DNA of 64,000 nucleotides from Dolomedes plantarius. Lineage: Eukaryota; Arthropoda; Arachnida; Araneae; Dolomedidae. The notes under the pieces are model-generated. The model did not search any database and was not told where the DNA came from. It worked only from the letters and a program-made list of their open reading frames with translations. The DNA is taken from NCBI GenBank assembly GCA_907164885.2, contig OU015495.1, positions 4,167,308 to 4,231,307 on the forward strand, given 5' to 3'. Made by a program: the position numbers and the translations under genes. Position 1 is the first letter of the stretch, and every line of letters begins with the position of its first letter. Shown here piece by piece: positions 22,095-55,255 of the stretch.

Positions 22095-22139
<45 letters not shown>

Positions 22140-22141
22140 TA
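22081..22141. repeat. (TA)n tract at left border of array
   Basis: A TA dinucleotide run ending exactly at the first TG of the array's first LTR. A (TA)n tract resumes directly after the last LTR at 38623, consistent with insertion into a TA array and a 4-bp TATA duplication that cannot be proven in such sequence. Confidence 0.9.
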
Positions 22142-22609
22142 TGTCGGACTTAAGCGGGAACGAATAATTATTCTAAATTTAAAGGGGGCTTAGTAATTAA
22201 TTTATTGTCGCGGCGTAATTCGCCACTATTCTCATATCTTGGTTCGAAATACATCGAGAGATATCGGGGAATTCCCTTTGGATTGATTGACATCTGTGGC
22301 CACGCCTATGGTCCAACTCCGGTGTATGCGTCACAGACCATGTAGGCATGCGCGGTGGCTTTGGATGGAGAAAAACAATAGCGTGTAATCAGACGGCGGG
22401 ATTTAATTCATTGCTAGTGGACGCGTGTCAGCTGGGTCCCTAATTTGAAAATGGCGAGAGCTCAAATATGCGCTACTTGGATCAGTGGTTGCTGGAAAAT
22501 GAAATAAATTGGAAAAGCTTGAACTATGTTTATTAATTGGATTTAGACTACTTACCACTCGCCACCAGTATTAACATGATGACTGCTAATGCAAACCACA
22601 CGCCTGTCA
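22142..22609 (+). repeat. array LTR 1
   Basis: Starts TGTCGGACTTAAGCGGG and ends CACACGCCTGTCA. It is richer in GC and CpG than the internal region. It contains a GAAAATGGCGAGAG motif (YY1-like core) and AATAAA-like words in its last quarter (GAAATAAATTGG). It begins directly at the (TA)n tract, which fixes the 5' border of the LTR. Confidence 0.75.
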
Positions 22610-22656
22610 AGAGCCGGCAGGATTCGAACCTGCGCGGGGAAACCCAATGGATTTCA
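22610..22656 (+). other. tRNA-Ser-complementary leader (PBS region), unit 1
   Basis: The plus strand is the reverse complement of the 3' half of a tRNA-Ser. Read on the minus strand it gives TGAAATCCATT (anticodon TGA, loop and stem 3' strand), then a GGGG-loop-CCCC variable arm, then GCAGG-TTCGAAT-CCTGC (complete T arm with canonical loop). It ends with CGGCT of the acceptor stem. It starts one base after the LTR end, where a primer binding site belongs, but it is about 47 bases long instead of about 18 and lacks the CCA complement. It is not a tRNA gene, because the 5' half is missing. This copy has one C fewer in the variable arm than the others. Confidence 0.75.
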
Positions 22657-22681
22657 GTATGGACATTCAAAGTATGGACTG

Positions 22682-23532
22682 ATGGAACAAGTGCCAATTG
22701 CTTATGAACCATTTGACCTAATCTCAGTTGATACAGTTGGAGGTTTTAACTATTATAATTCGACAAAAAAATATCTTCATCTGGTGATTGATCATGCAAC
22801 AAGATATATTTGGACTTTTCCTTCAAAAGTGTGACAAGTGAGACATACACAAACTGTTTAAAACAAATTTTCAAAATTAAAGTTCCGAAACAAATATAAG
22901 TGACAGAAATGCTGCATTTACTTCCTCAAGGTTTAAGAAATTCCTAAAACATCACAATACGAGACAACTACTTACTTCAGCCCACGACCCCAGTGTAATG
23001 GCAAAAATGAGAGATGTAATCAAACGATTGTATCCAAATTAAGGTGTAAAGTTAATACTTCTTCGAAAAAAATTCCATGGACAAAAATTTTAGAACAAGT
23101 GACTTCCGAATATAATAATCAACCCCATAGAGTAACTGGATTTTCCCCGAATTACCTCCTATTTGGAAATTTGCCATATAACTCACCATTACCTAAAATA
23201 ACTTCATTACATTATCCGCCAGTTGAAGAAGCAAGAAAGATTGCAGTGCAAAGAACAATTCAGCACCATAAAATTAATAAACAAAGATATGATAGAAATT
23301 TTATACAGTCAAACTTCAAAATTGGTGACTTAGTGATGTACGAAGAATTCAAATACCCAAATTCAAGAAAATTAGATCCACCCTATTCAGGCCCTTATAA
23401 AATTTTAAGCAGATTTCTAATGTTAATTTCGAAATTGATAAACCAAACCAATACACTGGAAAAAAGAGTGAAATTGTGCACTCAACTAGATTAAGGCATT
23501 TTCAGCCATATAGTGAGTTTAAATTACAATAA
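22682..23532 (+). pseudogene. gypsy-type integrase core + GPY/F, unit 1
   Basis: The integrase would join element DNA to chromosomal DNA. From the first ATG (MEQVPIAYEPF) the catalytic core follows: first Asp in SVDTVGG, second in ILSDRNAAF, Glu in NGKNERCN, in Ty3/gypsy spacing. Next are GFSPNYLLFG, the KIGDLVMYE block and the GPY/F module (PPYSGPYKIL), ending KLQ at 23532. The N-terminal HHCC zinc finger is missing: only its trailing KYGL remains upstream of the ATG. In this copy an A is lost near 22829, ending the frame at FPSKV. A T is lost near 22897, and a C near 23411 shifts the tail. The frame is open upstream through the tRNA-like leader to 22589. Confidence 0.8.
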
Positions 23533-25319
23533 TGTTGTTTCATCCACAATTTTGGGGAGGGGGGGGGAAATTAAGATAAAATGTTGATACGAGTTACAAG
23601 TAAAAAATTGAAATTATAAAGTTATGATTGTTAATGAGTAAATAAAAATTAATAACATTGGAACTGATGAAGTAATATTGTGAAAGTAAACTAGAAGATG
23701 ATTTGTATTGAATTTATTGGATGTTAATAATTATGTATTTTTGAATTGAAATTTAATAACTTATGAAAGAACTTTGGCTAACCTAAATTATTTTGAAAAT
23801 TTTGTTACCATCTTTGCAATGTTTGTTACATTAATGTGTGGAGCTGTATCTACATTTTCCCGAATATGACCAAATTGCCTATCCCAGAGATCCATCTCTA
23901 ATTGATTTTATATGTTGGGTGCCTAACACCCTCTTGACTCCACTTATGTGGTTAAACGTTGTGTACTGATCTCTTTTGAGGCCTTTCCCAACCTAGAGTT
24001 TCAGTGTCGTGCACTATACGCACCAATTTTCACTTTGAATTTTGTTTAGAGTTGTCGGTTGTGGTTTAAGACGGTGGAAATTGTTGAACCTGCTCTCCTC
24101 TGACCCAACCATGCACTTGTTCACTCAACTACACAACACACACAAACAAAAAACATACACCTTGAATTAAACAGAATGTACACAGATGAAGGAATGGTAC
24201 ACCAGTACCAAAGTGAATTGTTTTACATAATGAATCTATCATTGTGAAATATTAAGGTGAATGAAGTGTAAATTATAAAATGTTTGATAACTTTGAATTG
24301 TGATAAATTTGAATCAGATTTTTGTGTTATGGAAAAATTTTGAAGTGTAAATAATATGTAGAGATTTTGAATTTCATGTGTAATTTCATATGTTTGTATT
24401 TCATAAGTAAGTCGAAGGTATAACAGAGCTATAAAAAGATAAACTGTATTGTAATTGATGTCAAAATACATTTGTGTCCGTTCGGCAAGTACAAGATACG
24501 AGAAAATAATCCCTGGGAAATTGATCAATATTTATATTTTTTTTCAATTATTAATATGTTGTGTCTCTGAGTATTTTTACAGGGTCAACCATGTCAAGGA
24601 GGCCTCCAACAAGCCGGTCGACCGCATTTAGTTTTGTCTTTCATATATTTAAATATTTTTTTCATGTACCTCCATTTTCACATTACCATAATCTGTGTAA
24701 ATAAAGTCATACTTGTAGAATTTTAAACTGGAACTGTTATAAAATTATAAGATGAGTGGACAGCATACAAGACTGTTGATTACATTACCACTCAACGAGG
24801 CTGATGAAAGTATTCAAGCCTGGACTTTAGATTGTAAAATGCTACTAACATTCCACGTTAATGGGTAATAGTTATTTGTGATTTTCAATTAATTTGTTCC
24901 TAGGTGAGTTTTTGAAGTGACATTGTTTTTCAGGTGATGTCCTATTGAGATTATATATTGGTATAATTAAATTGATATTTTGAATTTATAGTGATATATT
25001 TTGAGATAATGCTGTAATATTTTCCTTTTTGCCTTAAGTCATCAGTGATATAAAATTGTACAACTCAAGAAATTTTGTGTAACTTGAAAAATTGTAAACT
25101 GTGTATTTTAAACCACTGCTCCAAGTCTTACAGACAGAAAGAATCAATCCAGGGGTTGTTAAGGGAACGGTTGATTTGTAATTAAGGGGGTTTTCACTGG
25201 AACCTGTTGTGTAGAGAGACGTCCCTACTCAGCATGTTTTCCAGTCTACTGATGTAATGTTTTTTTTATCGTAGGGGTTGTTGCCACAGGGAATTAGCTA
25301 CTCCTTGTGTGCACGCCTC
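23533..25319 (+). other. AT-rich 3' internal region, unit 1
   Basis: About 1.8 kb without a long plus-strand frame separates the integrase stop from the terminal polypurine tract. It carries a second purine tract (GGGGAGGGGGGGGG at about 23554-23570) 20 bases after the stop. It also has a conserved 38-codon frame at 24752-24868 and an AATAAAG at about 24702. The equivalents in the other units are 26734-28512, 29938-31732, 33139-34930 and 36343-38133. It may be a decayed env or untranslated 3' region; I recognise no protein similarity. Confidence 0.6.
24752..24868 (+). CDS. 38-residue ORF in array unit 1, unknown
   Basis: ATG-started frame MSGQHTRLLITLPL... ending HVNG then TAA. It is hydrophilic in its second half, with no signal peptide and no known domain. 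The same segment is present in every complete unit. Unit 2 changes the stop TAA to TCA followed by TAG, so it ends one codon later. It is too short to call with confidence, and its conservation may only reflect the youth of the array. Confidence 0.25.
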   Translation: MSGQHTRLLITLPLNEADESIQAWTLDCKMLLTFHVNG

Positions 25320-25337
25320 AAGGGGAGGGGGGAAAGT
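25320..25337 (+). other. polypurine tract before LTR 2
   Basis: AAGGGGAGGGGGGAAAGT immediately precedes the TG of the next LTR, the position of a plus-strand primer. Matching tracts end at 28531, 31751, 34948 and 38153. Their placement is the second argument, with the outer border, for putting the LTR start at TGTCGG. Confidence 0.75.
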
Positions 25338-25806
25338 TGTCGGACTTAAGCGGGAACGAAATAATTATTCTAAATTTAAAGGGGGGCTTAGTAATTAATT
25401 TATTGTCGCGGCGTAATTCGCCACTATTCTCATATCTTGGTTCGAAATACATCGAGAGATATCGGGGAATTCCCTTGGATTGATTGACATCTGTGGCCAC
25501 GCCTATGGTCCAACTCCGGTGTATGCGTCACAGACCATGTAGGCATGCGCGGTGGCTTTGGATGGAGAAAAACAATAGCGTGTAATCAGACGGCGGGATT
25601 TAATTCATTGCTAGTGGACGCGTGTCAGCTGGGTCCCTAATTTGAAAATGGCGAGAGCTCAAATATGCGCTACTTGGATCAGTGGTTGCCGGAAAAAGAA
25701 ATAAATTGGAAAAGCTTGAACTATGTTTATTAATTGGATTTAGACTACTTACCACTCGCCACCAGTATTAACATGATGACTGCTAATGCAAACCACACGC
25801 CTGTCA
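25338..25806 (+). repeat. array LTR 2
   Basis: A shared LTR between units 1 and 2. It differs from LTR 1 by a few single-base changes, for example GGAAAAAGAAATAAATTGG instead of GGAAAATGAAATAAATTGG near 25692. Confidence 0.75.
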
Positions 25807-25855
25807 AGAGCCGGCAGGATTCGAACCTGCGCGGGGAAACCCCAATGGATTTCAG
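25807..25855 (+). other. tRNA-Ser-complementary leader, unit 2
   Basis: The cleanest copy: GAGCCGGCAGGATTCGAACC followed by TGCGCGGGGAAACCCC and AATGGATTTCA. The T arm and variable arm are both perfectly paired when read on the minus strand. Confidence 0.75.
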
Positions 25856-25879
25856 TATGGACATTCAAAGTATGGACTG

Positions 25880-26733
25880 ATGGAACAAGTGCCAATTGCT
25901 TATGAACCATTTGACCTAATCTCAGTTGATACAGTTGGAGGTTTTAACTATTATAATTCGACAAAAAAATATCTTCATCTGGTGGATTGATCATGCAACA
26001 AGATATATTTGGACTTTTCCTTCAAAAAGTGTGACAAGTGAGACATACCACAAACTGTTTAAACAAATTTTCAAAATTAAAGTTCCGAAACAAATATTAA
26101 GTGACAGAAATGCTGCATTTTACTTCCTCAAGGTTAAGAAATTCCTAAAACATCACAATACGAGACAACTACTTACTTCAGCCCACAGACCCCAGTGTAA
26201 TGGCAAAAATGAGAGATGTAATCAAACGATTGTATCCAAATTAAGGTGTAAAGTTAATACTTCTTCGAAAAAAATTCCATGGACAAAATTTTAGAACAAG
26301 TGACTTCCGAATATAATAATCAACCCCATAGAGTAACTGGATTTTCCCCGAATTACCTCCTATTTGGAAATTGCCATATAACTCACCATTACCTAAAATA
26401 AACTTCATTACATTATCCGCCAGTTGAAGAAGCAAGAAAGATTGCAGTGCAAAGAACAATTCAGCACCATAAAATTAATAAACAAAGATATGATAGAAAT
26501 TTTATACAGTCAAACTTCAAAATTGGTGACTTAGTGATGTACGAAGAATTCAAATACCCAAAGTCAAGAAAATTAGATCCACCCTATTCAGGCCCTTATA
26601 AAATTTTAAGCCAGATTTCTAATGTTAATTTCGAAATTGATAAACCAAACCAATACACTGGAAAAAAGAGTGAAATTGTGCACTCAACTAGATAAGGCAT
26701 TTTCATCCATATAGTGAGTTTAAATTACAATAA
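25880..26733 (+). pseudogene. gypsy-type integrase, unit 2
   Basis: The best core of the five: one frame (25926-26294) carries DHATRYIWTFPSK, ILSDRNAAF and the NGKNERCNQ glutamate block. A second frame (26447-26695) carries the KIGDLVMYE and GPY/F tail. The breaks are an extra G near 25984 (separating the first Asp block), a lost A near 26288, and indels near 26371 and 26401. All are single bases in runs. Confidence 0.8.
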
Positions 26734-28531
26734 TGTTGTTTCATCCCAATTTTGGGGAGGGGGGGGGGAAATTAAGATAAAATGTTGATACGAGTTACAA
26801 GTAAAAAATTGAAATTATAAAGTTATGATTGTTAATGAGTAAATAAAATAATAACATTGGAACTGATGAAGTAATATTGTGAAAGTAAACTAGAAGATGA
26901 TTTGTATTGAATTTATTGGATGTTAATAATTATGTATTTTTGAATTGAAATTTAATAACTTATGAAAGAACTTTGGCTAAACCTAAATTATTTTGAAAAT
27001 TTTGTTACCATCTTTGCAATGTTTTGTTACATTAATGTGGAGCTGTATCTACTATTCCCGATATGACCAAATTGCCTATCCCAGAGATCCATCTCTTAAT
27101 TGATTTTATATGTTGGGTGCCTAACACCCTCTTGACTCCACTTATGTGGTTAAACGTTGTGTACTGATCTCTTTTGAGCCTTTCCCAACCTAGAGTTTCA
27201 GTGTCGTGCACTATACGCACCAATTTTCACTTTGAATTTTGTTTAGAGTTGTCGGTTGTGGTTAAGACGGTGGGAAATTGTTGAACCTGCTCTCCTCTGA
27301 CCCAACCATGCACTTGTTCACTCAAACACAAACACACACAACAAAAACATACCTTGAATTAAACAGAATGTACACAGATGAAGGAATGGTACACCAGTAC
27401 CAAAAGTGAATTGTTTTACATAATGAATCTATCATTGTGAAATATTAAGGTGAATGAAGTGTAAATTATAAAATGTTTGATAACTTTGAATTGTGATAAA
27501 TTTGAATCAGATTTTTGTGTTATGGAAAAATTTTGAAGTGTAAATAATATGTAGAGAATTTGAATTTCATGTGTAATTTCATATGTTTGTATTTCATAAG
27601 TAAGTCGAAGGTATAACAGAGCTATAAAAAGATAAACTGTATTGTAATTGATGTCAAAATACATTTGTGTCGTTCGGCAAGTACAAGATACGAGAAAAAT
27701 AATCCCATGGGAAATTGATCAATATTTATATTTTTTTTCAATTATTAATATGTTGTGTCTCTGAGTATTTTACAGGGTCAACCATGTCAAGGAGGCCTCC
27801 AAACAAGCCGGTCGACCGCATTTAGTTTTGTCTTTCATATATTTAAATATTTTTTTCATGTACATCCATTTTCACATTACCATAATCTGTGTAAATAAAG
27901 TCATACTTGTAGAATTTTAAACTGGAACTGTTATAAAATTATAAGATGAGTGGACAGCATACAAGACTGTTGATTACATTACCACTCAACGAGGCTGATG
28001 AAAGTATTCAAGCCTGGACTTTAGATTGTAAAATGCTACTAACATTCCACGTTAATGGGTCATAGTTATTTTGTGATTTTCAATTAATTTGTTCCTAGGT
28101 GAGTTTTTGAAAGTGACATTGTTTTCAGGTGATGTCCTATTGAGATTATATTGGTATAATTAAATTGATATTTTGAATTTATAGTGATATATTTTGAGAT
28201 AATGCTGTAATATTTTCCTTTTTGCCTTAAGTCCTCAGTGATATAAAATTGTACAACTCAAGAAATTTTGTGTAACTTGAAAAATGTAAACTGTGTATTT
28301 TTAAACCACTGCTCAAGTCTTACAGAACAGAAAGGAATCAATCCAGGGGTTGTTAAGGGAACGGTGATTTGTAATTAAGGGGGTTTTCACTGGAACCTGT
28401 TGTGTAGAGAGACGTCCCTACTCAGCATGTTTTCCAGTCTACTGATGTAATGTTTTTTTTTATCGTAGGGTTGTTGCCACAGGGAATTAGCTACTCCTTG
28501 TGTGCACGCCTTCAAGGGGAGGGGGGAAAGT

Positions 28532-29011
28532 TGTCGGACTTAAGCGGGAACGAAATAATTATTCTAAATTTAAAGGGGGGCTTAGTAATTAATTTATTGT
28601 CGCGGCGTAATTCGCCACTATTCTCATATCTTGGTTCGAATACATCGAGAGATATCGGGGAATTCCTTTGGAATTGATTGACACTCTGTGGCCACGCCTA
28701 TGGTCCAACTCCGGTGTATGCGTCACAGCACCATGTAGGCATGCGCGGTGGCTTTGGAGGGAGAAAAACAATAGCGTGTAATCAGGACGGCGGGATTTAA
28801 TTCATTGCTAGTGGACGCGTGTCCAGCTGGGTCCCTAATTTGAAAATGGCCGAGAGCTCAAATATTGCGCTACTTGGATCAGTGGTTGCTCGGAGGAAAA
28901 TGAAATAATTGGAAAAAACTGAACTATGTTTATTAATTGGATTTAGACTACTTACCACTCGCCACCAGTATTAACATGATGACTGCTAATATGCAAACCA
29001 CACGCCTGTCA
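28532..29011 (+). repeat. array LTR 3
   Basis: The most indel-rich LTR, about 12 bases longer than the others. It has scattered single-base insertions between 28668 and 28905, for example a G-G-A inserted in the TTGCTCGGAGGAAAATG segment. Confidence 0.7.
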
Positions 29012-29013
29012 AG

Positions 29014-29059
29014 GAGCGGCAGGATCGAACCTGCGCGGGGAAACCCCAATGGATTTCAG
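29014..29059 (+). other. tRNA-Ser-complementary leader, unit 3
   Basis: Same leader with two single-base losses (GAGCGGCAGGATCGAACC), which would disrupt the acceptor and T-loop complements. This fits the generally noisy unit 3. Confidence 0.7.
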
Positions 29060-29083
29060 TATGGACATTCAAAGTATGGACTG

Positions 29084-29937
29084 ATGGAACAAGTGCCAAT
29101 TGCTTATGAACATTGACCTAATCTCAGTTGATACAGTTGGAGGTTTTAAACTATTATAATTCGACCAAAAAATCATCTCATCTGGTGATTGACTCATGCA
29201 ACAAGATATATTTGACTTTTCCTTCAAAAAGTGTGACAAGTGAGACATACCCAAACTGTTTAAAACAAATTTTCAAAATTAAAGTTCCGAAACAAATATT
29301 AAGTGACAGAAATGCTGCATTTACTTCCTCAAGGTTTTAAGAAATTCCTAAAACATCACAATACGAGACAACTACTTACTTCAGCCCACAGACCCCAGTG
29401 TAATGGCAAAAATGAGAGATGTAATCAAACGATTGTATCCAAATTAAGGTGTAAAGTTAATACTTCTTCGAAAAAAAATTCCATGGACAAAAATTTTAGA
29501 ACAAGTGACTTCCGAATATAATAATCAACCCCATAGACGTAACTGGATTTTCCCCGAATTACCTCCTATTTGGAAATTTGCCATATAACTCACCATTACC
29601 TAAAATAACTTCATTACATTATCCGCCAGTTGAAGAAGCAAGAAGATGGCAGTGCAAAGAACAATTTCAGCACCATAAAATTAATAAACAAAGATATGAT
29701 AGAAATTTTATACAGTCAAACTTCAAAATTGGTGACTTAGTGATGTACGAGAATTCACATACCCAAATTCAAGAAAATTAGATCCACCTATTCAGGCCCT
29801 TATAAAATTTTAAGCCAGATTTCTATGTTAATTTCGAAATTGATAAACCAAACCAATACACTGGAAAAAAGAGTGAAATTGTGCACTCAACTAGATTAAG
29901 GCATTTTCATCCATATAGTGAGTTTAAATTACAATAA
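29084..29937 (+). pseudogene. gypsy-type integrase, unit 3
   Basis: The same core and GPY/F order as in unit 2. It is split into at least five frames by single-base indels near 29113, 29175, 29330, 29460 and 29537. SDRNAAF and the NGKNER block fall in overlapping frames (29128-29340 and 29303-29521). The tail frame is 29578-29781. Confidence 0.75.
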
Positions 29938-31751
29938 TGTTGTTTCATCCACAATTTTGGGGAGGGGGGGGGGGGGGGAAATTAAGATAAAATGTTGATA
30001 CGAGTTACAAGTAAAAAATTGAAATTATAAAGTTATGATTGTTAATGAGTAATAAAATAATAACATTGGAACTGATGAACGTAATATTGTGAAAGTAAAC
30101 TAGAAGATGATTGTATTGAATTTATTGGATGTTAATAATTATGTATTTTTTGAATTGAAATTTAATAACTTATGAAAGAACTTTGGCTAAACCTAAATTA
30201 TTTTGAAAATTTGTTACCATCTTTGCAATGTTTGTTACATTAATGTGTGGAGCTGTATCTACATTTTCCCGAATATGACCAAATTGCCTATCCAGAGATC
30301 CATCTCTTAATTGATTTTATATGTTGGGTGCCTAACACCCTCTTGACTCCACTTATGTTGTTAAACGTTGTGTACTGATCTCTTTTGAGCCTTCCCAACC
30401 TAGAGTTTCAGTGTCGTGCACTATACGCACCAATTTTCACTTTGAATTTTGTTTAGAGTTGTCGGTTGTGGTTAAGACGGTGGGAAATTGTTGAACCTGC
30501 TCTCCTCTGACCCAACCATGCACTTGTTCACTCAACTACACAAACACACACAAACAAAAAACATACACCTTGAATTAAACAGAATGTACACAGATGAAGG
30601 AATGGTACACCAGTACCAAAAGTGAATTGTTTTACATAATGAATCTATCATTGTGAAATATTAAGGTGAATGAAGTGTAAATTATAAAATGTTTGATAAC
30701 TTTGAATTGTGATAAATTTGAATCAGATTTTTGTGTTATGGAAAAATTTTGAAGTGTAAATAATATGTAGAGAAGTTTGAATTTCATGTGTAATTTCATA
30801 TGTTTGTATTTCATAAGTAAGTCGAAGGTATAACAGAGCTATAAAAAGATAAACTGTATTGTAATTGATGTCAAAATACATTTGTGTCGTTCGGCAAGTA
30901 CAAGATACGAGAAAAATAATCCCATGGGAAATTGATCAATATTTATATTTTTTTTCAATTATTAATATGTTGTGTCTCTGAGTATTTTACAGGGTCAACC
31001 ATGTCAAGGAGGCCTCCAAACAAGCCCGGTCGACCGCATTTAGTTTTGTCTTTCATATATTTAAATATTTTTTTCATGTACCTCCATTTTCACATTCCAT
31101 AATCTGTGTAAATAAAGTCATACTTGTAGAATTTTAAACTGAACTGTTATAAAATTATAAGATGAGTGGACAGCATACAAGACTGTTGATTACATTACCA
31201 CTCAACGAGGCTGATGAAGTATTCAAGCCTGGACTTTAGATTGTAAAATGCTACTAACATTCCACGTTAATGGGTAATAGTTATTTTGTGATTTTCAATT
31301 AATTTGTTCCTAGGTGAGTTTTTGAAGTGACATTGTTTTTCAGGTGATGTCCTATTGAGATTATATATTGGTATAATTAAAGTGATATTTTGAATTTATA
31401 GTGATATATTTTGAGATAATGCTGTAATATTTTCCTTTTTGCCTTAAGTCATCAGTGATATAAAATTGTACAACTCAAGAAATTTTGTGTAACTTGAAAA
31501 ATTGTAACTGTGTATTTTTAACCACTGCTCCAAGTCTTACAGAACAGAAAGAATCAACTCCAGGGTTGTTAAGGGGAACGGTTGATTTGTAATTAAGGGG
31601 GTTTTCACTGGAACCTGTTTGTGTAGAGAGCACGTCCCTACTCAGCATGTTTTCCAGTCTACTGATGTAATGTTTTTTTTTATCGTAGGGGTTGTTGCCA
31701 CAGGGAATTAGCTACTCCTTGTGTGCACGCCTTCAAGGGGAGGGGGAAAGT

Positions 31752-32218
31752 TGTCGGACTTAAGCGGGAACGAAATAATTATTCTAAATTTAAAGGGGGC
31801 TTAGTAATTAATTTATTGTCGCGGCGTAATTCGCCACTATTCTCATATCTTGGTTCGAAATACATCGAGAGATATCGGGGAATTCCTTTGGATTGATTGA
31901 CATCTGTGGCCACGCCTATGGTCCAACTCCGGTGTATGCGTCACAGACCATGTAGGCATGCGCGGTGGCTTGGATGGAGAAAAACATAGCGTGTAATCAG
32001 ACGGCGGGATTTAATTCATTGCTAGTGGACGCGTGTCAGCTGGGTCCCTAATTGAAAATGGCGAGAGCTCAAATATGCGCGCTACTTGGATCAGTGGTTG
32101 CTGGAAAAATGAAATAAATTGGAAAAGCTTGAACTATGTTATTAATTGGATTTAGACTACTTACCACTCGCCACCAGTATTAACATGATGACTGCTAATG
32201 CAAACCACACGCCTGTCA
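31752..32218 (+). repeat. array LTR 4
   Basis: Nearly identical to LTR 1 and LTR 5. It has an extra GC near 32080 (ATATGCGCGCTAC) and a lost A near 31985. Confidence 0.75.
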
Positions 32219-32267
32219 AGAGCCGGCAGGATTCGAACCTGCGCGGGGAAAACCCCAATGGATTTCA
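32219..32267 (+). other. tRNA-Ser-complementary leader, unit 4
   Basis: The leader is intact through the T arm. One extra A lies before the CCCC of the variable arm, and a C is inserted after the final TTTCA. Confidence 0.7.
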
Positions 32268-32292
32268 CGTATGGAATTCAACGTATGGACTG

Positions 32293-33138
32293 ATGGAACA
32301 AGTGCCAATTGCTTATGAACCATTTGACCTAATCTCAGTTGATACAGTTGGAGGTTTAACTATTATAATTCGACAAAAAAATATCTTCATCTGGTGATTG
32401 ATCATGCAACAAGATATATTGGACTTTTCCTTCAAAAGTGTGACAAGTGAGACATACACAAACTGTTTTAAAACAAATTGTCCAAATTAAAGTTCCGAAA
32501 CAAATATTAAGTGACAGAAATGCTGCATTTACTTCCTCAAGGTTTAAGAATTCCTAAAACATCACAATACGAGACAACTACTTACTTCAGCCCACAGACC
32601 CCAATGTAATGGCAAAAATGAGAGATGTAATCAAACGATTGTATCCAAATTAAGGTGTAAAGTTAATACTTCTTCGAAAAAAATTCCATGGACAAAATTT
32701 TAGAACAAGTGACTTCCGAATATAATAATCAAACCCCATAGAGGTACTGGATTTCCCCGAATTACCTCCTATTTGGAAATTTGCCATATAACTCACCATT
32801 ACCTAAATAACTTCATTACATTAATCCGCCAGTTGAAGAAGCAAGAAAGATTGCAGTGCAAAGAACACTTCAGCACCATAAATTAATAAACAAGATATGA
32901 TAGAAATTTTATACAGTCAAACTTCAAAATTGGTGACTTAGTGATGTACGAAGAATTCAAATACCCAAATTCAAGAAATAGATCCACCCTATTCAGGGCC
33001 CTTATAAAATTTTAAGCCAGATTTCTAATGTTAATTTCGAAATTGATAAACCAAACCATACACTGGAAAAAAGAGTGAAATTGTGCACTCAACTAGATTA
33101 AGGCATTTCATCCATATAGTGAGTTTAAATTACAATAA
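32293..33138 (+). pseudogene. gypsy-type integrase, unit 4
   Basis: Motifs as in the other units. The upstream frame 32146-32397 runs through the leader into SVDTVGG and stops after a lost T near 32356. More single-base indels occur near 32420, 32551, 32740, 32825 and 32890. One substitution (CCCAATG for CCCAGTG near 32602) lies in the pre-Glu block. Confidence 0.75.
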
Positions 33139-34948
33139 TGTTGTTTCATCCACAATTTTGGGGAGGGGGGGGGGGAAGGAAATTAAGATAAAATGTTGAT
33201 ACGAGTTACAAGTAAAAATTGAAATTATAAAGTTATGATTGTTAATGAGTAAATAAAATAATAACATTGGAACTGATGAAGTAATATTGTGAAAGTAAAC
33301 TAGAAGATGATTGTATTGAATTTATGGATTGTTAATAATTATGTATTTTTGAATTGAAATTTAATAACTTATGAAAGAACTTTGGCTAAACCTAAATTAT
33401 TTGAAAATTTTGTTACCATCTTTGCAATGTTTTGTTACATTAATGTGTGGAGCTGTATCTACAGTTTCCCGAATATGACCAAATTGGCCTATCCCAGAGA
33501 TCCATCTCTTATTGATTTTATATGTTGGGTGCCTAACACCCTCTTGACTCCACTTATGTGGTTAAACGTTGTGTACTGATCTCTTTTGAGCCTTTCCCAA
33601 CCTAGAGTTTCAGTGTCGTGCACTATACGCACCAATTTTCACTTTGAATTTTGTTTAGAGTTGTCCGGTTGTGGTTAAGACGGTGGGAATTGTTGAACCT
33701 GCTCTCCTCTGACCCAACCATGCACTTGTTCACTCAACTACACAAACACACACAAACAAAAAACATACACCTTGAGATTAAACAGAATGTACACAGATGA
33801 AGGAATGGTACACCAGTACCAAAAGTGAATTGTTTTACATAATGAATCTATCATTGTGAATATTAAGGTGAATGAAGTGTAAATTAGAAATGTTTGATAC
33901 TTTGAATTGTGATAAATTTGAATCAGATTTTTGTGTTATGGAAAAATTTTGAAGTGTAAATAATATGTAGAGAATTTTGAATTTCATGTGTAATTTCATA
34001 TGTTTGTATTTCATAAGTAAAGTCGAAGGTATAACAGAGCTATAAAAAGATAAACTGTATTGTAATTGATGTCAAAATACATTTGTGTCGTTCGGCAAGT
34101 ACAAGATACGAGAAAAATAATCCCATGGGAAATTGATCAATATTTATATTTTTTTTCAATTATTAATATGTTGTGTCTCTGAGTATTTTACAGGGTCAAC
34201 CATGTCAAGGAGGCCTCCAAACAAGCCGGTCGACCGCATTTAGTTTTGTCTTTCATATATTTAAATATTTTTTTCATGTACCTCCATTTTCACATTACCA
34301 TAATCTGTGTAAATAAAGTCATACTTGTAGAATTTTAAACTGGAACTGTTATAAAATTATAAGATGAGTGGACAGCATACAAGACTGTTGATTACATTAC
34401 CACTCAACGAGGCTGATGAAAGTATTCAAGCCTGGACTTTAGATTGTAAAATGCTACTAACATTCCACGTTAATGGGTAATAGTTATTTTGTGATTTCAA
34501 TTCATTTGTTCCTAGGTGAGTTTTTGAAGTGACATTGTTTTTCAGGTGATGTCCTATTGAGATTATATATTGGTATAATTAAATTGATATTTTGAATTTA
34601 TAGTGATATATTTTGAGAAATGCTGTAATATTTTCCTTTTTGCCTTAAGTCATCAGTGATATAAAATTGTACAACTCAAGAAATTTTGTGTAACTTGAAA
34701 AATTGTAAACTGTGTATTTTTAAACCACTGCTCCAAGTCTTACAGAACAGAAAGAATCAATCCAGGGGTGTTAAGGGAACGGTTGATTTGTAATTAAGGG
34801 GGTTTCACTGGAACCTGTTGTGTAGAGAGACGTCCCTACTCAGCATGTTTTCCAGTCTACTGATGTAATGTTTTTTTTATCGTAGGGGTTGTTGCCACAG
34901 GGAATTAGCTACTCCTTGTGTGCACGCCTTCAAGGGGAGGGGGAAAGT

Positions 34949-35415
34949 TGTCGGACTTAAGCGGGAACGAAATAATTATTCTAAATTTAAAGGGGGCTTA
35001 GTAATTAATTTATTGTCGCGGCGTAATTCGCCACTATTCTCATATCTTGGTTCGAAATACATCGAGAGATATCGGGGAATTCCCTTTGGATTGATTGACA
35101 TCTGTGGCCACGCCTATGGTCAACTCCGGTGTATGCGTCACAGACCATGTAGGCATGCGCGGTGGCTTTGGATGGAGAAAAACAATAGCGTGTAATCAGA
35201 CGGCGGGATTTAATTCATGCTAGTGGACGCGTGTCAGCTGGGTCCCTAATTTGAAAATGGCGAGAGCTCAAATATGCGCTACTTGGATCAGTGGTTGCTG
35301 GAAAATGAAATAAATTGGAAAAGCTTGAACTATGTTTATTAATTGGATTTAGACTACTTACCACTCGCCACCAGTATTAACATGATGACTGCTAATGCAA
35401 ACCACACGCCTGTCA
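34949..35415 (+). repeat. array LTR 5
   Basis: Clean copy; one C is lost near 35120 (GGTCAACTCC) and one T near 35218. Confidence 0.75.
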
Positions 35416-35464
35416 AGAGCCGGCAGGATTCGAACCTGCGCGGGGAAACCCCAATGGATTTCAG
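35416..35464 (+). other. tRNA-Ser-complementary leader, unit 5
   Basis: Identical to the unit 2 leader over the tRNA-related part. Confidence 0.75.
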
Positions 35465-35488
35465 TATGGACATTCAAAGTATGGACTG

Positions 35489-36342
35489 ATGGAACAAGTG
35501 CCAATTGCTTATGAACCATTTGACCCTAATCTCAGTTGATACAGTTGGAGGTTTTAACTATTATAATTCGACAAAAAAATATCTTCATCTGGTGATTGAT
35601 CATGCAACAAGATATATTTGGACTTTTCCTTCAAAAAGTGTGACAAGTGAGACATACACAAACTGTTTAAAACAAATTTCAAATTAAAGTTCCGAAACAA
35701 ATATTAAGTGACAGAAATGCTGCATTTACTTCCTCAAGGTTTAAGAAATTCCTAAAACATCACAATACGAGACAACTACTTACTTCAGCCCACCAGACCC
35801 CAGTGTAAATGGCAAAAATGAGAGATGTAATCAAACGATTGTATCCAAATTAAGGTGTAAAGTTAATACTTCTTCGAAAAAAATTCCATGGACAAAAATT
35901 TTAGAACAAGTGACTTCCGAATATAATAATCCACCCCCATAGAGTAACTGGATTTTCCCCGAATTACCTCCTATTTGGAAATTTGCCATATAACTCACCA
36001 TTACCTAAAATAACTTCATTACATTATCCGCCAGTTGAAGAAGCAAGAAAGATTGCAGTGCAAAGAACAATTCAGCACCATAAAATTAATAAACAAGATA
36101 TGATAGAAATTTTATACAGTCAAACTTCAAATTGGTGACTTAGTGATGTACGAAGAATTCAAATACCCAAATTCAAGAAAATTAGATCCACCCTATTCAG
36201 GCCCTTATAAATTTTAAGCCAGATTTCTAATGTTAATTTCGAAATTGATAAACCAAACCAATACACTGGAAAAAAGAGTGAAATTGTGCACTCAACTAGA
36301 TTAAGGCATTTTCATCCATATAGTGAGTTTAAATTACAATAA
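35489..36342 (+). pseudogene. gypsy-type integrase, unit 5
   Basis: The first Asp block to VTSETYTNCLKQ is open in one frame after an inserted C near 35524. It is then shifted by a lost TTT/A near 35678, an added C near 35794 and a lost A near 36098. The last third (NFEIDKP to KLQ) agrees with unit 2. Because each lesion here is absent from at least one other unit, the ancestral integrase of the array was probably intact. Confidence 0.75.
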
Positions 36343-38153
36343 TGTTGTTTCATCCACAATTTTGGGGAGGGGGGGGGGAAATTAAGATAAAATGTTGATA
36401 CGAGTTACAAGTAAAAAATTGAAATTATAAAGTTATGATTGTTAATGAGTAAATAAAATAATAACATTGGAACTGATGAAGTAATATTGTGAAAGTAAAC
36501 TAGAAGATGATTTGTATTGAATTTATTGGATGTTAATAATTATGTATTTTTGAATTGAAATTTAATAACTTATGAAAGAACTTTGGCTAAACCTAAATTA
36601 TTTTGAAAATTTTGTTACCATCTTTGCAATGTTTTGTTACATTAATGTGTGGAGCTGTATCTACATTTTCCCGAATATGACCAAATTGCCTATCCCAGAG
36701 ATCCATCTCTTAATTGATTTTATATGTTGGGTGCCTAACACCCTCTTGACTCCACTTATGTGGTTAAACGTTGTGTACTGATCTCTTTTGAGCCTTTCCC
36801 AACCTAGAGTTTCAGTGTCGTGCACTATACGCACCAATTTCACTTTGAATTTTGTTTAGAGTTGTCGGTTGTGGTTAGACGGTGGGAAATTGTTGAACCT
36901 GCTCTCCTCTGACCCAACCATGCACTTGTTCACTCAACTACACAAACACACACAAACAAAAAACATACACCTTGAATTAAACAGAATGTACACAGATGAA
37001 GGAATGGTACACCAGTACCAAAAGTGAATTGTTTTACATAATGAATCTATCATTGTGAAATATTAAGGTGAATGAAGTGTAAATTATAAAATGTTTGATA
37101 ACTTTGAATTGTGATAAATTTGAATCAGATTTTTGTGTTATGGAAAAATTTTGAAGTGTAAATAATATGTAGAGAATTTTGAATTTCATGTGTATTTCAT
37201 ATGTTTGTATTTCATAAGTAAGTCGAAGGTATAACAGAGCTATAAAAAGATAAACTGTATTGTAATTGATGTCAAATACATTTGTGTCGTTCGGCAAGTA
37301 CAAGATACGAGAAAAAATAATCCCATGGGAAATTGATCAATATTTATATTTTTTTTTCAATTATTAATATGTTGTGTCTCTGAGTATTTTACAGGGTCAA
37401 CCATGTCAAGGAGGCCTCCAAACAAGCCGGTCGACCGCATTTAGTTTTGTCTTTCATATATTTAAATATTTTTTCATGTACCTCCATTTTCACATTACCA
37501 TAATCTGTGTAAATAAAGTCATACTTGTAGAATTTTAAAACTGGAACTGTTATAAAATTATAAGATGAGTGGACAGCATACAAGACTGTTGATTACATTA
37601 CCACTCAACGAGGCTGATGAAAGTATTCAAGCCTGGACTTTAGATTGTAAAATGCTACTAACATTCCACGTTAATGGGTAATAGTTATTTTGTGATTTTC
37701 AATTAATTTGTTCCTAGGTGAGTTTTTGAAGTGACATTGTTTTTCAGGTGATGTCCTATTGAGATTATATATTGGTATAATTAAATTGATATTTTGAATT
37801 TATAGTGATATATTTTGAGATAATGCTGTAATATTTTCCTTTTGCCTTAAGTCATCAGTGATATAAAATTGTACAACTCAAGAAATTTTTGTGTAACTTG
37901 AAAAATTGTAAACTGTGTATTTTTAAACCACTGCTCCAAGTCTTACAGAACAGAAGAATCAATCCAGGGGTTGTTAAGGGAACGGTTGATTTGTAATTAA
38001 GGGGGTTTTCACTGGAACCTGTTGTGTAGAGAGACGTCCCTACTCAGCATGTTTTCCAGTCTACTGATGTAATGTTTTTTTTATCGTAGGGGTTGTTGCC
38101 ACAGGGAATTAGCTACTCCTTGTGTGCACGCCTTCAAGGGGAGGGGGGAAAGT

Positions 38154-38622
38154 TGTCGGACTTAAGCGGGAACGAAATAATTATTCTAAATTTAAAGGGG
38201 GCTTAGTAATTAATTTATTGTCGCGGCGTAATTCGCCACTATTCTCATATCTTGGTTCGAAATACATCGAGAGATATCGGGGAATTCCCTTTGGATTGAT
38301 TGACATCTGTGGCCACGCCTATGGTCCAACTCCGGTGTATGCGTCACAGACCATGTAGGCATGCGCGGTGGCTTTGGATGGAGAAAAACAATAGCGTGTA
38401 ATCAGACGGCGGGATTTAATTCATTGCTAGTGGACGCGTGTCAGCTGGGTCCCTAATTTGAAAATGGCGAGAGCTCAAATATGCGCTACTTGGATCAGTG
38501 GTTGCTGGAAAATGAAATAAATTGGAAAAGCTTGAACTATGTTTATTAATTGGATTTAGACTACTTACCACTCGCCACCAGTATTAACATGATGACTGCT
38601 AATGCAAACCACACGCCTGTCA
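38154..38622 (+). repeat. array LTR 6 (terminal)
   Basis: A complete LTR with no internal region after it. It ends CACACGCCTGTCA and switches at once to (TA)n. This defines the 3' LTR border independently of the tRNA-like leader. Confidence 0.8.
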
Positions 38623-38626
38623 TATA

Positions 38627-49276: not shown

Positions 49277-49383
49277 ATGGCTTCTGTATCGAATGAGAGA
49301 GTGAATTGGATTTTTTTTCGGGATTTACAAATGCGGGTAAGAGAAGTGTGATTGATTATTGTACTCGTATGTATGTTGGGTTA
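49277..49383 (+). pseudogene. Merlin/ISXO2-like transposase, N-terminal part
   Basis: The frame opens at ATG 49277 with MASVSNERVNWIFFRDLQ. After a single-base shift near 49328 it continues as NAGKRSVIDYCTRMYVGL up to the BEL/Pao insertion point at 49383. Removing the insertion and one copy of its duplicated GGTTA lets the frame run on in phase into LANTYHFPNCSLPM at 55256. I therefore read this as the first exon-like part of the same transposase gene. Confidence 0.6.
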
Positions 49384-49579
49384 TGTTGCGTACTTAAATA
49401 TCAATCGGTTCGGGAAAGAAATACATCGATAGTCAAACACAACAACTAACTTTATTCGTATCTTACAGGCGACGGTAGAACACACACAGCACTCGGCCAA
49501 AATATATACAGCTCTTCTATTTGGTTATGCGCAAGCACAATGCGCATTGCGTAAGGGCGAGATCTCTTCTGTTGCCACA
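49384..49579 (-). repeat. BEL/Pao 3' LTR
   Basis: Plus-strand ends are TGTTGCGTAC and TTGCCACA. The only difference from the other LTR is one extra G in GCGTAAGGGCG (49551-49561). Confidence 0.95.
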
Positions 49580-49581
49580 TA

Positions 49582-49595
49582 CACTCCCACCTTTT
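49582..49595 (-). other. BEL/Pao polypurine tract
   Basis: On the minus strand AAAAGGTGGGAGTG lies three bases before the 3' LTR, the expected site of plus-strand priming. Confidence 0.7.
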
Positions 49596-49761
49596 GAGTG
49601 GGTAACTATACACGTCAAAATAAACATACACAGAATGATATATATAGCTTACAATACTTCTACAAATAACATACATTTGAACACATAATAAAAAGAAGTG
49701 AAACCGAGTAAAGTGAATTTTGAAATAAATAGTCTGAATACAAAATTACCTTAAAAGTGTT

Positions 49762-52700
49762 TTAAACAATTCTGCCACTACTAGTTGTTAAAGGCGTAGG
49801 CTCGTCATAATAGTCTGTTATTGCATTTTCCAGTTCTAATCTGTACAATCTTTGAACCGGTCTTAATAATTCTGAATTATTAGTTTTTATAAGCGCTAGT
49901 CTTATTTGGCCATCTCGACAAGGTATAACCTTTAAAACACGAGCCAGGTTCCAAAAAGAACGTTTTTTATTAGTATCTTCAAGCAGGACAATTTCTCCCA
50001 CCTTAAGTGGTTTGGTTTTATAGCATTTAAGGCATGCTGCCGTAACTGCCCTAAATACTCTGAACGGAATCTAACTCTTAATGTTTCTCTTAGCCTTTGC
50101 AAATACTTTGTTCTTTTACTCAATTTCACTTTATCCACATTATCAGTATCTGGTACACCTGAATGCGGAGTTTCGTGCAAGAATTTTTCAGGGGTTATAG
50201 GAAAGTCATCATCAATGTCTTGTGATACATAGGTAAGAGGTCTGGAGTTAACAACTCTCTCACAGTCGCACAGTACAGTAAGTAATTCCTCGTAATCAAC
50301 ACAAGCTTGACCCAATATTTTTCTTAAGATTTGTTTTACAATTTGAATTAAGCGTTCCCACCATCCGCCCCACCAGGCTGCGGATGGAGGATTAAACTTC
50401 CATTCAATTTTTTGTTCTGCAGCCTTAAAACGGAGACCATCCCAGTCAATAGCTCGCAAAAATTTATCTGCACCTTTGAAATATTTTCCATTATCTGAGT
50501 ATATGGTCCTAGGTCGCCCTCGACGAGCGATAAAACGCCTTAAAGATTGAAAAAAGGTTTCAGTGGATAACGAAGTTATCAATTCTAAGTGGACGGCCCG
50601 ATATACAGAACAAGTAAAAAGTACAATATATGATTTTCGACCATCTTTCAAATACAATGGACCAGCAAGATCACATCCTACTATTTCAAACATACATGCA
50701 TCGCAAACCCTATCACTTGATAAAATTCCTGGGATTGTCTCACATTTTTTAGCTTTGAATTTTTGACATCTTACACATTTTCTTATGCAATTTCTTATTG
50801 TCTTACGTGATTTTAAAATCCAAAAATTTTCTCGTAACTTTGACATTAACAATGAAGTACCAGCATGTAATAAATCATTATGCACACTTATTAACAATTT
50901 TACAACAGGGTGATCAGAAGGTAATATGATAGGAAACTTAAAATCATATTTATCATCTCTATAAGCAACCTTTGATTGAGCTCTTATAAAACCATGACAG
51001 TCAACTATTGGTCTAAGTTGTCTTAATTTGTCATCATTTTCTCCCTTAAAAGATTCCCTTTGAATCAGTAGCATTACGCTTTCTCTCCTCTTTCCATTTC
51101 ATGCACAGATAAGTCCTTTGAGAGATTTTTGTCAAATTTCCTTACATTGTTATAAAATCTAAAAATCCAAGATAACATTCTTACAATTTTCTTAAACGAA
51201 GAAAATATTTATAATACCATTTATGATTTTCATCATTTTTCACCAATGTCACGAGAACAGTTTTACGAATTTCAGCATTGATTAAGTCCTCATTTGGGTC
51301 CTCATACGACTTCGGCCAATCTCCTTCCCTTTCGCGCAACCAGTCCGGTCCCTCCCACCATTTTCGTTCAACTAAATGTTCTGCAGAACATCCTCTAGAT
51401 AGTAAATCGGCGGGGTTAAGAGAACCTGAGATATGGTGCCACATTGCATTAGAGGTCAAAGAACGAATCTCTAGAAACGCGATTATGAATAAATGTTGCC
51501 CAATTTTGATCTCGTTGAATCCAACATAAAGCCGTTGTCGAGTCAGTCCAGCAATAAATATTTACCCCCTCTAAATTAAGATCTTTGAGTACGGAAGATA
51601 ACAACCTAGCCCCTATACTACAAGCTAAAAGTTCTAAGCGAGGTATGGTAATAGGTTTTAAAGGGGTTACTCTAGATCTTGCCTGCACTAAACTAATTCT
51701 GACCCCATTGTCATTTTCGACTCTTAAAAAAACACATGCACCATATGCCCTTTTACTGGAGTCGCAAAAAAAGATGTAAGCTTATTGAGTCATCAGTGGA
51801 TTGGAGACCGAACCATCTAGATATACTTATACTTGAAAGCAAATGCAATCTTTTATTCCATAATTTAAATTTTTGGGCTAAATCATCAGGAAGGACATCA
51901 TCCCATTTAATTTTTAAGTTCCAGGTTTCCTGCAAAATAAATTTTGCAATTAACACCACTGGAGCCGTATAGCCTATAACATCAAATACTTGGTTGGTTA
52001 CGGCTAAAACCAGTCTTTTTGTGATCGGGGTATCGATAGCCTCTTCCACTTTGCATGATAACGTATCACTACATGTATTCCATACAAGGCCCAAGAGAGG
52101 TACACTTTCCTTTGTGGAGTAAACCTCTTCAAATATTTCACTACTTAAGTTCGAATTCCAACATCTTAGATTAAAATGACCTGAAGCCATAATTGCCTTT
52201 GATTCCAAGAAAAACTTTTTCATTTCGAGCTCAGACTTCAAACTTGTCACACAATTATCTACATAGAAAGCTGTTTTCAGTATATCTGCGGTGTGCTTTA
52301 AATTTTCCGGAACCTTACTCAAATGATACTATAAAGTTGCGTTTAATAAATATGGGCTGCACGTAATGCCAAACACTACCCTTCGATGCCGATATCCCTC
52401 CACCAGTTCCCGATTTTCTCGACTGAACCAAAGAAACCTTAAAAAATCGCGATCCTTTTCTCTGATTGCGATCTGCAAGAACGCCTTCTCAATGTCAGAG
52501 GTAACACCTACGTAATTCATCCGAAAACGATTTAAAATTGATGGAATCGTTTCAATTAAATTTGGTCCAGTAGACAAACACTCGTTTAATGATGGGAAGC
52601 CTGGTAAATGGGAACTAGCATTAAAAACTGGCCTAATACTCGTAGTACTAGCTTCTTTAATCACTGCCCTATGCGGCAAATAATGAACACCCCTTAGTTT

Positions 52701-53825
52701 ATCATTTGGTGCCCTTTCAATTATGCCAAGAGCTAACCAGTCCTCAAAAACATTACAGTAATCGTTAAATTTTCCAGAATTTGTTAATTTTCTTTTGGCA
52801 CTTAACATAGATTTCTCAGCATTTATTTTGTTATCGGGTAAAAGTGAACTGTCATGAACCCAAGGCAATGCTACCTCGTATCGCCCCTCACTGTTTACAC
52901 TAAGAGTCTCTTCAAAATATTTCTGCGTATCCTCCTGTAACTGAGCTTTAGTTTTGCTTAGCGAAGGTTCTGCAATCCCCAAAACATCCAGATTCCAAAG
53001 ATTACTTATACAACGATCCTTTACAAGCAGAGACGAAATAAGGGAAGCTGAACTCGCAGAATTTGGCTCAGTGCCAGGATTCGCATTTAATTTTCCCATA
53101 ACAGTCCATCCCAATTTTGTATTTATAGCCGTAATGCCACATTTGAGACTCACAATTTTTCCAGTTAACAATTTTCCAGCAATGTCTGCACCAATTAACA
53201 ATTTTATTTCTTTATTAACCCCCAATTTATTATTTTCCAAATCATTTAATTTTATTCCGCGTAACTTTAGTTCATGCAACCAAGGACCACATGGAACCTG
53301 TTTAATTTCAGAACAAATACGGTTTTGACCAAGTACTTGTAATTTACACTTATTTCTACCATCAATATCACTTAATTCAATTAAATAATTTCTATATACG
53401 CTTTCAGGGGTTTCAACACCACCAAACAGAGATTGCTTAATTTTTGTTTCTGCAATGCACTTACATTTCATACTTTGAGCAACATCTTCACAAATATAAG
53501 ATTTCATACTCCCACTATCATAAACAGCTCGAATAAGCATTTGCTTGGAACCATTCTGAATTCTTACAAGAATAGTTTGTAAAAATACATCTGACATATC
53601 AACATGATTGTTAAGAGTGCTTGTTTTGTTTTTACTTCCCTCTACGTTAGAGACATTATCAACTTTGTTATTTGTTAAATCTGGACATAAAATCACGAAA
53701 TGTCGATTTTTGCAAATGGGACACCTATGCTTTGACTTACACTGATTAGCCCTGTGATTTCTTTTCAAGCATACAAAACAAGCATTCTTTTTTCTAACAA
53801 TATCTTTTTTACAATCCAAACTCAT
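49762..53825 (-). pseudogene. BEL/Pao pol (PR-RT-RNaseH-IN), frameshifted
   Basis: Polyprotein for copying and inserting the element. From 53825 come zinc-knuckle CX2C pairs (CFVCLKRNHRANQC, CPICKNRHF), then a DUF1758 aspartic protease (AVYDSGSMKSYI). RT has its motif A at VTSDIEKAFLQI and its catalytic box as FYVDNCV at about 52215, where YVDD is usual. RNase H (WTDSTTALCWI) and integrase follow. The integrase has an H2C2 finger, GCDLAGPL, SDNGKYF and WWERLI as D, D, E. The DUF5641 tail (GEIVLLED...RVLKV) comes last. Breaks are an in-frame TAG at 52329-52331 and one-base shifts near 51770, 51477, 51192, 51066 and 50011. All the shifts lie in short homopolymers. DUF5641 ends GRIV at 49762. 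Confidence 0.9.
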
Positions 53826-54967: not shown

Positions 54968-55033
54968 TTCTTAATAAAACGTATTTTAGTTCGTATTTAA
55001 ATTTAACTTAATTTGACTATCGGAATAATACTC

Positions 55034-55053
55034 GCATCCCGGCAGGGATGCCA
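55034..55053 (-). other. BEL/Pao primer-binding region, palindromic
   Basis: On the minus strand TGG starts two bases after the 5' LTR and reads TGGCATCCCTGCCGGGATGC. The TGG and spacing are standard for a tRNA primer site. The sequence also folds on itself (GCATCCC, four-base loop, GGGATGC). I could not assign the cognate tRNA. Confidence 0.55.
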
Positions 55054-55055
55054 AA

Positions 55056-55250
55056 TGTTGCGTACTTAAATATCAATCGGTTCGGGAAAGAAATACATCG
55101 ATAGTCAAACACAACAACTAACTTTATTCGTATCTTACAGGCGACGGTAGAACACACACAGCACTCGGCCAAAATATATACAGCTCTTCTATTTGGTTAT
55201 GCGCAAGCACAATGCGCATTGCGTAAGGCGAGATCTCTTCTGTTGCCACA
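55056..55250 (-). repeat. BEL/Pao 5' LTR
   Basis: The promoter-side LTR for the minus-strand element; 195 of 196 positions match the other LTR, which suggests a very recent insertion. Confidence 0.95.
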
Positions 55251-55255
55251 GGTTA

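Follow-up and report, generated by a model that had tools for sequence, protein, structure and literature searches.

Here we describe a tandem array of internally deleted long terminal repeat (LTR) retrotransposon derivatives in the genome of the spider Dolomedes plantarius. The array lies in a 64-kb stretch of contig C5 (C5:4167308–4231307, the whole stretch analysed and hereafter the window; array positions are counted from its first base), and the genome searched comprises 2.78 Gb in 390 contigs. Its layout was established by repeat search, BLAST and alignment, which bore out the six ~468-bp LTRs and five internal regions with a common deletion reported by a first-pass annotation made from the sequence alone. 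In the assembly, six LTRs (467–480 bp, 95.2–100% identical to LTR 1) alternate strictly with five internal regions (2725–2740 bp), and LTRs 1, 5 and 6 show no substitutions among them. The outer borders, too, fall where they had been placed, exactly at LTR ends (TGTCGG at the start, CCTGTCA at the end) with (TA)n flanks on both sides. TATA adjoins the whole array on either side, yet within (TA)n, so it is not diagnostic as a target-site duplication (TSD). Inner LTRs are common to neighbouring units, with no TSD between them, and the alternation with an LTR at either end is that of a tandem LTR retrotransposon. The array is real in this assembly, and five is the assembly count. Its features are as follows.

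22138–22141, unstranded: left target-site tetranucleotide TATA in (TA)n (the family TSD is 4 bp; not diagnostic in a TA repeat)
22142–22609, plus strand: LTR 1
22610–22655, plus strand: tRNA-Ser scar of unit 1, AG and then 44 nt
22656–22668, plus strand: junction filler of unit 1, AGTATGGACATTC
22669–23530, plus strand: truncated integrase region of unit 1, end approximate
22610–25337, plus strand: internal region of unit 1, 2728 bp
25338–25806, plus strand: LTR 2
25807–28531, plus strand: internal region of unit 2, 2725 bp, with tRNA scar at 25807–25853
28532–29011, plus strand: LTR 3, the longest, with several 1-bp insertions
29012–31751, plus strand: internal region of unit 3, 2740 bp, with tRNA scar at 29012–29057
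31752–32218, plus strand: LTR 4
32219–34948, plus strand: internal region of unit 4, 2730 bp, with tRNA scar at 32219–32266
34949–35415, plus strand: LTR 5
35416–38153, plus strand: internal region of unit 5, 2738 bp, with tRNA scar at 35416–35462
38154–38622, plus strand: LTR 6, with no substitutions relative to LTR 1
38623–38626, unstranded: right target-site TATA

Every unit thus runs from an LTR through a tRNA-derived scar (46–48 nt) and a filler (13 nt) into parental sequence that extends from the integrase region to the element's end, resuming at base 4119 of one full-length copy (L011). The scar, which the first-pass annotation overlooked while recognizing the deletion that it borders, matches the complement of the 3′ half of tRNA-Ser; in unit 1 it is AG followed by 44 nt complementary to the tRNA from anticodon to acceptor stem. 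The normal primer site of the family is 13 nt long. After the 5′ LTR, all 11 two-LTR copies compared (L009–L014, L016–L019 and L028, chosen for a 6.8-kb LTR spacing; L011 and L028 are one insertion) read AG, AGCCGGCAGGATT and then the leader, with one extra base within AGCCGGCAGGATT in most copies and further small differences in L019 and L028. This site matches tRNA-Ser from position 70 rather than from the CCA end and ends at tRNA position 58/59; the array scar extends far past it, on to the anticodon. A tRNA scan and an Rfam scan of the window returned nothing. One place in a cluster on C4 (L071) was confirmed by ARAGORN as a tRNA-Ser(TGA) gene, while five other places tested alongside were not genes. 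Against the complement of this gene, the scars of units 2 and 5 agree at 43 of 45 bases, both mismatches falling on opposite sides of one T-stem pair, and scars of the type found in a second array on C14 (below) show no difference over 47 bases.

The parent element is present in the genome. A search with LTR 1, in which 40 of 2272 candidates were scored, gave many matches as pairs ~6.8 kb apart, and the full-length parent that the first-pass annotation had presumed was found as two-LTR copies, mostly 7.27 kb long, with 469-bp LTRs (TGTCGG..TGTCA) and a 4-bp TSD (TATA, TGTA or TACA). The 4-bp flanks agree in 12 of the 13 two-LTR copies read (L017 is the exception, and L028 repeats L011). Most of these TSDs are TATA in a TA repeat, (TA)n being the ordinary target of the family in the copies read, and three are informative (L009, L010, L020). 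Pieces of L009 matched, in order, protease, RVT_1 with RNase H, and H2C2-rve-p58_C in Pfam, the domain order of Ty3/gypsy elements, whereas its first frame, presumed to be gag, had no Pfam match. TG..CA LTRs, a short TSD and a tRNA primer site are those of an LTR retrotransposon. The parent integrase finds its best protein match in the orb-weaver Trichonephila clavipes (73% over 88%), and its further matches include Araneus, Stegodyphus and a pseudoscorpion. Judged by its sequence, the parent is a 7.27-kb Ty3/gypsy element nearest to orb-weaver spider proteins.

A subfamily (L022, C1:32958146; L068, C7:121475704) has a 2.8-kb extra module between the LTR and a second U5 end and primer-binding site (PBS), and the L068 tail aligns to this 5′ module. 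The spacing at C1:32948561–32958615 was suggestive of a three-unit array, a candidate rejected once its two halves were read as one long element with the 2.8-kb extra 5′ module. Capture of cell sequence was considered for a 927-bp filler in L020 and is unsupported, part of the filler being, as judged by eye, the reverse complement of the L068 tail.

Alignment of unit 1 to full-length relatives reveals a single large deletion, the junction of which all five units share, apart from minor variation in units 3 and 4. In the filler, the first A possibly still belongs to the tRNA complement, and AGTATGGAC repeats the flank directly downstream, giving the look of a templated insertion. Loss of the H2C2 zinc finger of integrase, as first annotated, is confirmed by this alignment and by Pfam. 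The description of the units as keeping only integrase was looser: the rve core and the C-terminal part are retained in the sequence, with a frame interrupted in the assembly, and the bulk of each unit is the 3′ part of the parent, past the integrase frame. Only one stop-to-stop frame of at least 150 amino acids occurs across the array, a 185-amino-acid frame in unit 1 that weakly matches Ty3 integrase (E 9e-5) and matches no Pfam family above the cut-off; the integrase piece had no match in a phage collection. The array units cannot be autonomous.

A genome search for the deletion junction gave 247 candidates, 40 of which were scored; five span the junction, all in the window array, and the other 35 match the downstream flank only. 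These results bear on whether a mobile integrase-only subfamily built the array, by separate insertions or by nested head-to-tail integration. Such a subfamily would be in keeping with full LTRs alternating with units, yet we consider it very improbable, as no further copy with the window junction occurs among the scored places, no TSD separates the units, and register and filler are the same in units 1, 2, 3 and 5, with small differences in unit 4. Repeated mobilization in trans, one of the origins first put forward, is disfavoured on the first two of these grounds, and a dispersed integrase-only subfamily on the first.

Scars of this kind are not confined to the window. Two 51-base patterns, allowing up to three mismatches, located scars at LTR ends in 39 and 41 places, their union being 49 places in 43 loci (grouped at 10 kb), while reversed-pattern controls gave 0. 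CA plus two bases precede the tRNA part in 48 of the 49 (by eye; the pattern itself favours CA). Scar length ranges from 33 to 55 nt, and the T-stem type, the anticodon base (TGA and CGA types) and the adjoining LTR end (AG, AC, GT, AA and others) vary as well. Most scars stop between tRNA positions 27 and 35, with L049 stopping earlier, in the variable arm. This variety, together with the start of rearrangement at the scar end, makes it improbable that an extended tRNA complement was inherited in one element lineage and that deletions arose beside it later by ordinary recombination, even though several scars share a GCAGG tRNA type and AG after the LTR end, with no exact gene found, and L043 holds a scar inside an otherwise leader-bearing element.

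An exact pattern running past tRNA position 27 matched 102 places, and none of the 100 listed is one of the 49 scar places. Of those listed, 95 lie on C4 at 155.95–156.33 Mb, and 91 fall in an apparent tRNA-Ser gene cluster at C4:155954824–156172764 (TGA and CGA anticodons, many ~303 bp apart), within which L071 is the one place confirmed by ARAGORN. Base 32 is C in 99 of the 100 listed places, whereas, of the eight scars read as far as position 27, three have C there (L051, L070 and L074) and five do not (L047, L052, L066, L072 and L073; Fisher p 3e-6, for loci not randomly drawn). These mismatches may stem from modified bases in the copied tRNA or from snap-back copying. We rejected them as proof of modification and treat them as no more than a hint, since snap-back, which is seen in L066, would give the same base. 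Twelve places outside the LTR-end lists (e.g. C13:19259713) hold tRNA-Ser halves with a changed base 32, perhaps scars of other families or tRNA pseudogenes, and two scar places with LTR ends of GACA type, separated by 77 bp (C1:14493434 and 14493511), are possibly a miniature tandem.

To see what follows the scars, 40 of 793 candidates were scored and 30 loci cut, 18 of them scarred (window and C14 arrays counted once each). Rearranged sequence follows the scar in 15 of the 18: a deletion in the window, L045, L049, L059, L060 and L061; inverted pieces in L052, L057 and the C14 array; filler and then a deletion in L044; another LTR in L047 (an LTR–tRNA–LTR joint); and, over the 1.5 kb read, sequence that barely matches the element or does not match it in L051, L058, L065 and L066. 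The normal leader follows in two, and in one (L046) a filler precedes the U5 end, PBS and leader. Five loci in the set are unscarred, among which L062 and L064 have a normal leader, L067 departs from the family sequence inside the site and the leader of L068 is a different one. At C2:136209420–136209580 (L072), two LTR ends with tRNA-Ser complements of different types form a head-to-head joint, meeting at the anticodon. By eye, short templated-looking fillers occur at the window, L043 and L058 junctions, and microhomology or short templated insertions, the marks expected of alternative end-joining by polymerase theta, at several joints; reverse-transcriptase template switching can look alike.

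The second scarred array (C14:128426609–128433532) consists of four units of ~1665 bp and a partial fifth LTR, followed by N, the units differing at 1–13 of about 1665 bases. Its LTRs 2–4 and the partial fifth share a base at sites 5, 6, 151 and 183 that is absent from LTR1 and from all eight outside LTRs compared (seven for sites 5 and 6, at which L046 is gapped), and LTR1 alone is changed at sites 20, 81 and 227. Because the LTRs of an element are identical at insertion and the inner LTRs share changes absent from LTR1, the C14 array, to judge by these sites, grew after insertion, the outcome expected of unequal LTR exchange. Gene conversion could have contributed to the pattern. A search for LTRs with internal sequence on both sides recovered, among the best 40 of 3418 candidates, all four inner LTRs of the window and a single unscarred example on C7, more divergent arrays such as that on C14 lying outside these 40.

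We propose, at a probability of roughly 0.55, that the window array began as one scarred insertion of a deletion derivative in (TA)n and was then expanded to several units by unequal LTR exchange. A young Ty3/gypsy element would have given rise to a non-autonomous deletion derivative during reverse transcription, when plus-strand strong-stop DNA passed tRNA position 58 and copied the tRNA-Ser primer to the anticodon. In human immunodeficiency virus 1 (HIV-1), 1-methyladenosine at this position (m1A58) is the normal stop for plus-strand strong-stop DNA, and products reaching position 37 or the tRNA end are inactive (PMC13191261). The over-extended strand would be unable to pair properly with the normal PBS and would instead be joined, via a short templated filler, to the mid-integrase region, yielding the order LTR, tRNA complement, deletion. 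The derivative would then insert into (TA)n a single time, and its LTRs would recombine unequally to produce several units, five in this assembly. We infer the cause (over-extension), the way in which the ends were joined (either reverse-transcriptase switching or host end-joining) and, for the window array itself, unequal exchange, an origin already entertained in the first-pass annotation and preferred here because the C14 array grew after its insertion.

Several observations weigh against this proposal. L043 (with a short duplication) and L048 (with a repeated U5 end) keep the leader after the scar, and L063, unscarred and with a normal site, is deleted at a GGATT microhomology; over-extension is therefore neither sufficient nor necessary for deletion. 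At least one other LTR-sharing tandem, at C7:121475203, has no scar; the two features can thus occur independently, and we do not claim a link between them. No tRNA-Ser gene with the exact T-stem type of the window was found, the six places matching the pattern with at most one mismatch all being scars. Expansion from one unit to five needs several exchanges within a short time, and sequence noise masks shared mutations that could reveal stepwise growth, leaving one such pattern, common to units 3 and 4.

The main rival to unequal LTR exchange is a multimer formed before integration. Here host alternative end-joining would join the U5-tRNA end to the truncated internal end, closing a one-LTR circle at the scarred junction; transcription reading repeatedly through the circle, or strand-displacement synthesis along it, would yield an LTR-sharing multimer that integrated once. 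Alternative end-joining was reportedly found by Yang et al. in 2023 to circularize LTR-retrotransposon complementary DNA (cDNA). The scar is the leftover expected from joining a U5-tRNA end, and the fillers at the window, L043 and L058, like the L047 and L072 joints, resemble end-joining. According to PMC12786077, which cites that work, second-strand transfer relies on PBS microhomology exploited by alternative end-joining factors, and PBS-guided circularization yields one-LTR circles in fly and mouse; rearranged one-LTR circles are also reported as abundant in PMC12132167, where the authors ascribe them to auto-integration. Against this, the C14 array, of the same family and with the same scar, grew after insertion, and the fillers are also explicable by reverse-transcriptase template switching. 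The one-LTR circle origin raised in the first-pass annotation thus fits the scar junctions and is less favoured than unequal exchange given the C14 array; we regard it as possible but doubtful.

Equally tentative is a wider reading of the tRNA-Ser scars as a genomic fossil record of a failed replication step, in which plus-strand DNA would have over-copied the primer tRNA to its anticodon region and host end-joining would have linked the resulting U5-tRNA ends to other cDNA or closed them into one-LTR circles, the circles seeding rearranged, sequence-capturing and tandem copies, including the window array. If true, the joining and circularization step inferred in flies and mice could be read directly in an arachnid genome.

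How far the unit count and the unit differences can be trusted was judged from the sequence noise. Among the internal regions, 90 gap-free columns vary; of these, 89 are private to a single unit (unit 2 accounts for 41, unit 4 for 22, unit 3 for 18, unit 1 for 6 and unit 5 for 2), and one is common to units 3 and 4. Measured at columns where five clean copies agree, the array units together show 35 transitions and 67 transversions, and indel events number 15–33 per unit; three clean copies have 1–7, whereas L028, a noisy duplicate, has 31. L011 and L028 (C11, 31.06 and 31.12 Mb) are one insertion with identical flanks, present twice in the assembly and likely to reflect either an assembly duplicate or a haplotype left uncollapsed. 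The two copies are separated by 12 transitions, 31 transversions and 100 indels, L028 being full of 1-bp indels, against 1–11 indels in 45 pairs from ten other full-length comparisons. Since the differences between array units carry the same fingerprint of 1-bp indels and transversions as L028, they are mostly sequencing or polishing error, and some of the 50 unit 2 substitutions could be real. The quality of the sequence in this region is accordingly poor. Dating the array from unit divergence was rejected on this account, and the five-unit count rests on the assembly. The indel load per unit and the doubly held L011/L028 insertion would also suit a smaller array (1–4 units) that the assembler lengthened when working from noisy long reads. 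We think this unlikely: the 89 private columns among 90 argue that the units were not pasted from a single sequence, and the C14 array, which is cleaner, has the same design.

LTR-sharing arrays are already known, and a head-to-tail array is less unusual than the first-pass annotation held: two papers (PMC11899658; PMC7215508) describe them from plants, with mentions of kangaroo, yeast and Drosophila. Plant tandem LTR retrotransposons share the alternation, the common inner LTRs and the LTR at both ends; they are mostly gypsy elements with a TSD around the whole in the described cases, and unequal exchange and multimeric insertion are undecided there too (PMC11899658). The arrays described here differ in their animal host, in the strong deletion of their internal regions (across five units in one array and four or more in the other) and in the primer-tRNA scar of each unit. 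Arrays of Cassandra, a terminal-repeat retrotransposon in miniature (TRIM), are likewise long, LTR-sharing (at least 12 repeated LTRs) and built from a non-coding derivative; Cassandra carries 5S rRNA sequence in its LTRs and is a dispersed family (PMC7215508), whereas the window deletion unit was found at one locus only. TRIM or Helenus-type small-RNA elements, as defined in PMC10886601, are very short and have tRNA-like sequence in the LTR; in the window, by contrast, the tRNA part is outside the LTR, at the PBS and antisense, and the unit measures 3.2 kb.

For the scars themselves, a close likeness is HIV-1 without m1A58, in which the primer tRNA is copied past position 58 and one product stops at 37; that over-extended product is inactive (PMC13191261), whereas here such sequence stands beside LTR ends at 49 places, with 15 of the 18 loci read rearranged. 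Circularization of cDNA by alternative end-joining shares PBS joining and one-LTR products, and was studied in cellular replication intermediates (PMC12786077) rather than in integrated genomic scars. We found no earlier report, among the open-access papers searched, of primer-tRNA scars marking rearranged LTR elements. The birth of internally deleted, tandem and rearranged LTR elements is usually obscure, and here the birth junction seems to be labelled by a piece of primer tRNA. If the label holds, the step of second-strand transfer and end-joining becomes testable from genome sequence alone, and an LTR end followed by an extended tRNA complement offers a search motif for other genomes. The scars also bear on the importance of tRNA position 58 modification for retroelements.

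Elsewhere in the window, a second LTR element occupies 49382–55251 on the minus strand, with ~197-bp terminal repeats (LTRs at about 49384–49579 and 55056–55250) that are 99.5% alike, an apparent 5-bp TSD (GGTTA) and open frames of 511, 388 and 382 amino acids. Farther downstream, an inverted repeat pair of ~380 bp, 93% alike, lies at 59262–59641 and 60795–61174.

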